This document shows, in pieces, positions 4,386 to 5,638 of a stretch of 42,298 bases of DNA. Both the position numbers and the translations under genes were made by a program. Source of the DNA: Methanolobus psychrotolerans (GTDB lineage: Archaea; Halobacteriota; Methanosarcinia; Methanosarcinales; Methanosarcinaceae); contig NZ_MBKP01000024.1 in the NCBI RefSeq assembly GCF_002243045.1, forward strand, positions 1 through 42,298, read 5' to 3'. Position 1 is the first letter of the stretch, and the number at the start of each line of letters is the position of its first letter. The notes beneath the pieces are model-generated. The model saw nothing but the letters and a program-made list of their open reading frames with translations. It was not told where the DNA came from and ran no database searches.

Positions 4386-4430
4386 GTTATTTTTACCATG
4401 GCAGTTTGATGCAACTCAAAGTTTAAAAAT

Positions 4431-4460
4431 ATTGTCATATATCGTCATATATTGTCATAA
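4431..4460 (-). promoter_or_regulatory. Three tandem 10-bp operator-like units, purC-scrap promoter
   Basis: On the plus strand ATTGTCATAT, ATCGTCATAT and ATTGTCATAA follow one another without spacing, immediately upstream of a TATA-like TTTTTAAAC on the gene strand. The orientation and position relative to the TATA box match those at the intact purC. Confidence 0.55.
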
Positions 4461-5638
4461 AATGGTCATTGTTTGGTCCTTGCTATAATGGTACTTTTTT
4501 CCTGCAATCCATGCAGCTCCAAACTTGGCAATGATCGTAGCGCCTATCATCCAGAATCCCAAGATGAGCTGATTTCCCCCTTCAAAGAAAGGATGAATAT
4601 TTGTAAGTATTCCCACTGAAAGAAGGAAAAAAGGTATGAACAGTACGTTTCCGGCAAACTCTATTCTATTCATGGGAGGAATGGTATTTGGAATTAGACG
4701 GTTAAGCAGAAGGCTGGCAAGGAAAGACCCAATAATAGGTTCGTTCCCGGCAATTTCTGCAAGATATGCAAGTATAAACGCTATAGCCAACACAAAAAGA
4801 AATTCAAAATAACTCTCATCTGTAAGTTTACTGAAAAACCATCGTGCAATACGAGGAACAATAAACAACGATCCTACAAAGAAAACGACCAACCCGAAAA
4901 GCAACTTCATCCAGAAGAACATATCAAGCCTCCCCTCAGTGAAGAAACCACAACAGCCAGGACCATCAGGGTCAGTGTATCAGTAAGTAAAGTAGCCCCA
5001 ATTGCAGCAGTAATGTCCTCATTGTTGACAATACCAAGCTTCTTGATAACCGAACATGTAAGTAAGGTTTGTGAAGCAAATACGGAAGCGAAAAGGAGGG
5101 CTTCAGTGAAAGACAGACCCAATACTTAATATCATGCAGCCGTCCCTGCAACCTGTGGAATTAAAAATGATAATGTACCAAAGACAAAGACCAGGCTCCG
5201 ATCTATCTTCTCAATGAACTTGTTAATATTTATCTCCAGTCCTGCTATAAACATCAGGTAAACAAGACCAATTTCGCCAAGAAGCACAATGGTCTCTCCC
5301 TCTCAAGTATATGCAAAGCATTGGGACCGATTAATCCTGACTTCCGCCTTTTTAGGCGCATACGCGTCTCTTGATGCGGAAATATGTGCTTATATTTTAC
5401 AACATTATTCCGTTTGGCAAGAAGTAAAAATCAAATTCTAGTGGCGTTTTCTATTTGCATCTCCTGCTGATATGCGCTTAAAACTTGGGAACTCAGGATT
5501 AATGCACCGGCAAGAATTACACATTATCCCCGGTAATCTTAGTTATTTGAATAGAAGAGGTGCTATAAGGAAAATAAGCATCGACAACGCAAAGATCAAT
5601 ACAGACTCATGTAGAGGGATTGATGGGAATATGCTCAT
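4455..5638 (-). pseudogene. Cation:proton antiporter (CPA2/KefB-like), decayed
   Basis: Pieces of one membrane antiporter are read in order on the minus strand: PLHESVLIFALSMLIFLIAP from ATG 5638, [63 protein letters not shown] (to 4922), and MFFWMKLLFGLVVFF... to KDQTMTIL (stop at 4455). Lesions include a stop (TAA after LLFK), a frameshift before VILAG, a 161-bp insertion at GALI/GPNAL, a frameshift after LERE, two stops before GLSF (TGA and TAA), and a frameshift before MFFWMK. The 3' end runs straight into the purC-scrap promoter, so the C-terminal half is gone. It lies 30 bp downstream of a small regulator gene. Family is confident; subfamily is not. Confidence 0.8.
5336..5496. mobile_element. 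MITE-like insertion in the antiporter pseudogene
   Basis: A 161-bp non-coding segment interrupts the antiporter frame exactly between G-A-L-I and G-P-N-A-L. GATTAAT occurs on both sides (5329-5335 and 5497-5503), as expected of a 7-bp target duplication. Deleting the insert and one copy restores GALIGPNAL in frame. The ends (5337-5362 and 5471-5496) are imperfect 26-bp inverted repeats, identical at 20 positions, beginning CTGA and ending GCGCATA. It contains no reading frame of note. These are the features of a non-autonomous miniature element. I do not recognise its parent family, and I saw no second copy in the window. Confidence 0.75.

Follow-up and report, generated by a model that had tools for sequence, protein, structure and literature searches.

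A MITE with IS1634-type ends interrupts an antiporter pseudogene in Methanolobus psychrotolerans

What is the short segment that splits an antiporter gene in Methanolobus psychrotolerans, and which element put it there? The window, by which we mean the whole 42,298-nucleotide stretch of contig NZ_MBKP01000024.1 that was analysed, contains a gene that we take, from its sequence and general knowledge, to encode a Kef-type sodium/proton antiporter. A preliminary description had read the interrupting segment as a MITE whose parent it did not recognise. Its 161-bp non-coding insert is indeed non-coding but measures 162 bp, and no open reading frame of at least 50 amino acids lies within it, as befits a short element without a transposase gene. 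The duplication is real, although its length is 6 bp (ATTAAT) and not 7 bp (GATTAAT), the G being the terminal base of the element itself. The inverted repeats are likewise imperfect as described, but they extend over 27 bp rather than 26, match at 21 of 27 positions and start with CCTGA rather than CTGA. The features are collected in Table 1.

Table 1. Coordinates of the MITE and its host gene in the window
Feature	Position	Strand	Evidence
MITE body	5336–5497	− (puts the IS-left-like end first)	nine own-genome copies; empty site in relatives
Target-site duplication ATTAAT, copy 1	5330–5335		occurs once only in the G014 ortholog
Target-site duplication ATTAAT, copy 2	5498–5503		flanking sequence
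Terminal inverted repeat matching IS right end	5336–5362	+	24/27 to the C104 copy; 26/27 to the UBA470 IS
Terminal inverted repeat matching IS left end	5471–5497	−	25/28 to the own-genome IS, contig C41
Internal half-site of the repeat core, TATAAGCACATA	5383–5394	−	58 bp from the right end; motif shared with the IS transposase start codon
Host gene, degenerate antiporter	4461–5638	−	pieces 5638–5522, 5296–4925 and 4937–4461; tblastn/blastn against the G014 ortholog L123

When the source genome (3.16 Mb in 106 contigs) was searched, nine full copies of the MITE were recovered, in both orientations, which bore out the earlier prediction that more copies would be found, flanked by short direct repeats. 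Seven of them differ from one another at 0–3 of 162 positions, whereas the copies on contigs C27 and C63 are identical to each other and stand 13–14 positions (91% identity) from the other seven. Eight of the nine are flanked by a perfect 6-bp duplication (ATTAAT, ATAAAT, TTAAAT, CTTTAT, TAACAA, TTATAC, CTAGAC or CTACAG), each with a chance probability of 1/4096. A 7-bp repeat is absent from all the other copies in this genome, which rules out GATTAAT as the duplication; a 7-bp repeat was seen at one MITE copy, in another genome (G027). The exception among the nine, the C27 copy (L008, 337–498), has unlike flanks (ACACAA versus TTTAAA) despite its sequence identity to the C63 copy, possibly through recombination between copies. 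A dispersed repeat, GGAAAATATCCGTTTTTCTCTAGACATCTGCGGAAAGTCGG, contains or adjoins two of the MITE copies (L007/L002 flanks; L014 near 2760–2835) and recurs on contigs C6, C45, C58 and C89.

Empty sites provide the complementary evidence. When the MITE and one ATTAAT were deleted in silico, the antiporter DNA aligned without a gap over the junction to the ortholog of a congener, G014 (91% identity over 1016 alignment columns). The empty site was matched continuously in ten congeners: G014, for which the alignment was also inspected base by base and holds ATTAAT once, and nine others for which continuity of the match is the evidence (G003, G004, G006, G010, G012, G017, G021, G023 and G026). It follows that the window insertion is real and that, of the genomes searched, this one alone has it. 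The preliminary description had allowed that orthologous antiporters might carry the segment as coding sequence, or that further copies might be lacking; the orthologs are without the segment, and other copies exist. Three further MITE sites have continuous counterparts as well: L003 in G004 and G016; L009 in G011, G021, G026 and a tandem paralog; and L007 in paralogous repeats within its own genome. Taken together, the perfect duplications at eight of nine copies and the continuous DNA at the congeners' empty site exclude a chance origin. They also bear on a more trivial reading, that the segment is an artefact of a draft assembly in 106 contigs. The window copy is internal to its contig, is framed by a proper target duplication and corresponds to an empty site in relatives, and eight other copies have differing flanks, so that an artefact is barely credible.

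The family extends well beyond this genome. Related elements in the Methanosarcinaceae are 153–162 bp long and 62–78% identical overall to the main copy; their hosts include Methanosarcina spelaei, Methanosarcina sp. Ant1 and UBA5, and most delimited copies have 6-bp duplications. Matches occur in 29 of 112 Methanosarcinaceae genomes and 6 of 14 genera, a count that includes one or more chance matches as well as TIR-only matches, which may be IS ends. One match, L028 in G024, lies inside a kinase-like coding frame and was discarded as chance. So wide a distribution, together with a predicted transcript that folds well (z = −3.6), might suggest that the segment is not mobile at all but a fixed gene for a non-coding RNA, or a regulatory repeat. 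Part of that folding is explained by the pairing of the terminal inverted repeats, however, and the segment has no match in Rfam. Copies in both orientations, at unrelated sites with fresh 6-bp duplications and empty counterparts in congeners, contradict a fixed locus. We thus reject a non-coding RNA identity and regard any immobile RNA gene or repeat as very improbable.

The host gene has suffered more than the insertion. The preliminary description held that removing the insert restores the protein, which is true locally, through ...ALIGPNAL..., but not overall. Compared with the 684-aa ortholog in G014, its reading frame is broken by three in-frame stops and by three frameshifts (a 2-bp deletion and two 1-bp deletions); it also has a 6-bp in-frame insertion, and no antiporter sequence is recognisable in the window beyond codon 336 of about 684, so the C-terminal half is lost. 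Full restoration by removing the MITE is thereby ruled out; the ‘clean case’ claimed earlier is an overstatement for a gene with several further lesions. The antiporter is a multi-lesion pseudogene and should be treated as such. Its mismatches to G014 still fall mostly at third codon positions (14/16/49 by position), and hence all of the decay looks recent. The same genome has a related antiporter gene that is intact (680 aa), on contig C63. In the window, a short tandem-like run, tattgtcatatatcgtcatatattgtcata, lies directly beyond the point of truncation, at 4425–4465.

Which element, then, moves the MITE? The insertion sequence with matching ends that the preliminary description predicted was found, and belongs to the IS1634 family (NF033559). 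The two dissimilar MITE ends map one-to-one onto the left and right ends of this IS1634-type parent (CCTTAGTTCCC..TTTAAGCGCATA and CCTGACTTCCGC..TTTAAGCGCATA; the ends of the partner-type IS are also given as CCTTAGTTCCCAAAATTTAAGCGCATA / CCTGACTTCCGCTTTTTTAAGCGCATA). In the source genome, a longer element that shares the terminus is represented by its right end at the ends of contigs C58, C54 and C104. The MITE right end matches the first two at 25/27 positions; at the C104 end there is one further change. From the C104 fragment a 125-aa transposase C-terminus (P0001) can be read, which scores 93.7 bits (1.3e-26) against NF033559, just below a cut-off of 100 bits that is meant for a whole protein; a full-length relative from G032 reaches 297.7 bits (1.8e-88). 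The left end on C41 starts with CCTTAGTTCCCAAAATTTAAGCGCATA and runs into the transposase start, MKSTLRIKKINGIEYWYED. Of this C41/C104-type IS only the ends are assembled (C41, C54, C58 and C104), the body having been collapsed during assembly or left out of it, while the complete element on C27 belongs to a sister IS1634 subgroup. On contig C6 (L014, 1501–1800) there is also what is left of an IS1634 element, in degenerate form: a right end, CCTGACTTCCACATTTTTAAGCGCATA, and fragments of the transposase. It appears to be an IS copy with an internal deletion.

Two full-length relatives from other Methanosarcinaceae measure 1733 bp (G032, JASGVX010000107.1) and 1735 bp (UBA470, DAKU01000063.1), the latter with a 6-bp duplication, ATGCAG. 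IS1634 elements are described as 1500–2000 bp long, with ends C-----YT and AT-rich duplications of 5–6 bp (De Palmenaer et al. 2008, PMC2266710). Both sizes fall in this range, and the end pattern is seen in CCTGACTT / CCTGAGTT / CCTTAGTT. The 19 six-bp duplications gathered here are 80% A+T, in agreement with the IS1634 type. Neither relative has a transposase that is certainly active, since there is a stop within the UBA470 frame and the G032 frame (L096, 928–2499), though open, has Asn for Asp (LVYNLSSF versus LVYDLTSF). The replaced Asp stands in LVYDLTSF/LIYDITSI of other transposases and is probably their first catalytic residue.

The resemblance is not confined to the termini. The MITE interior resembles the 5′ region of the IS, including TATAAGCACATAT ahead of the start codon. 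Compared with the G032 element, the interior was equalled by 0–6 of 1000 shuffles in six of eight MITE subfamilies; outside the TIRs the homology is short, and for the Methanosarcina subfamilies Ant1 and M. spelaei it is weak. The C27-type element deserves consideration as the main mobiliser in place of the C41/C104-type element. Its transposase is open and complete (517 aa), and its ends, CCTGACTTCCCA..TTAGGCACA, have CCTGACTTCC and a TTAGGC core in common with one MITE end. Against this, the C27 ends differ from those of the MITE in spacing and core, and the C41/C104-type ends are closer, matching at 24–25 of 27–28 positions with no indel and with the GCGCATA core in common. Mobilisation mainly by the C27 type is accordingly unlikely.

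We conclude with high confidence that the segment belongs to the MITEs, being a relative of an IS1634-family element that has lost its interior, and that an IS1634-family transposase most likely moved it in trans, with a 6-bp duplication. Copies, duplications, empty sites, shared ends and, in the same genome, transposase fragments are all directly observed. We infer the identity of the mobilising transposase, most likely of the IS1634 family, and any present-day activity; the MITE has probably been mobile in recent time. In this reading, the MITE has both terminal repeats, left and right, together with what is left of the region surrounding the transposase start codon, and no transposase gene. 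An IS1634-family DDE transposase would recognise both ends in trans, and a 6-bp staggered cut in AT-rich DNA would yield an insertion with a 6-bp duplication.

The remnant around the start codon is of interest in its own right. Where an IS has a transposase related to P0001, an inverted repeat of the inner TIR core is found no more than about 35 bp from the transposase ATG. In L067, L069, L071, L077 and L088 it lies in the stretch just before that ATG. The TIR core and its repeat vary in step among subgroups: the C41 type has the TIR core TTTAAGCGCATA and the start region TGTGCGCTTATATTATAAGCACATATG, the C27 type TTAGGCACA and TGTGCCTAATTATTATGCACAATG, and G050 TTAGGCACTAT and ATAGTGCCTAATATAGGCATTATG. 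The TIR could be delimited with confidence in six elements (L067, L069, L071, L075, L077 and L088); for each of these, none of 51–58 control windows of equal length from the same element scored as high. These counts are descriptive, as the feature was first noticed and then tested on mostly the same elements. A further element, L070, shows the same arrangement by eye, with TTAGGCACA in the TIR and at the start (its TIR was mis-called computationally). The count leaves aside most other distant elements, whose TIR calls are unreliable, and loci L154–L166. In L147 and L149, two distant IS1634 elements whose TIRs are clear, the core is absent from the start codon. This rules out a trait of the whole family and makes the feature one of a subgroup, with TIR cores TTTAAGCGCATA / TTAGGCAC.

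In the MITE, the corresponding half-site starts 58 bp before the right end in all nine sequences tested. It is the best-conserved interior window in an alignment of the eight subfamilies, with a mean pairwise identity of 0.85–0.88 against an interior median of 0.60 and 0.84–0.93 in the TIRs. This conservation suggests a candidate transposase binding site, an operator in the IS that is retained in the MITE. More tentatively, and with somewhat less than an even chance of being right, the start-codon core, an inverted half-site or palindrome just downstream of a TATA-like box, may serve as an operator for self-repression of the transposase. The MITE half-site could then be bound by transposase within the element as a requirement for transposition, or act as a decoy that titrates transposase. 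A covarying TIR core at the start codon thus offers a testable idea on the self-control of these archaeal elements.

A parent family can now be assigned to an unannotated repeat family of about a quarter of the sampled Methanosarcinaceae genomes, and its exact ends and duplication length can be used for annotation. The elements agree with the IS1634 family (PMC2266710) in their C-----YT ends, AT-rich duplications of 5–6 bp, 1.73-kb parent and NF033559 transposase, whereas the MITE, unlike IS1634 insertion sequences, has no transposase. Within that family, the archaeal subgroup is set apart from L147 and L149 by repeating its TIR core at the transposase start codon. IS1634-derived MITEs are a kind already published for Methanosarcina: an ISMba11-related MITE of M. 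barkeri (247 bp, 23 copies, 20-bp inverted repeats, 6-bp direct repeats) and an ISMac10-related MITE of 249 bp in M. acetivorans (PMC3852290). Compared by published description rather than by sequence, those elements are longer (247–249 bp) than the 153–162 bp found here. They are nonetheless alike in being non-coding, in having an IS1634 partner and methanogen hosts and, in the ISMba11 case, in the 6-bp duplication.
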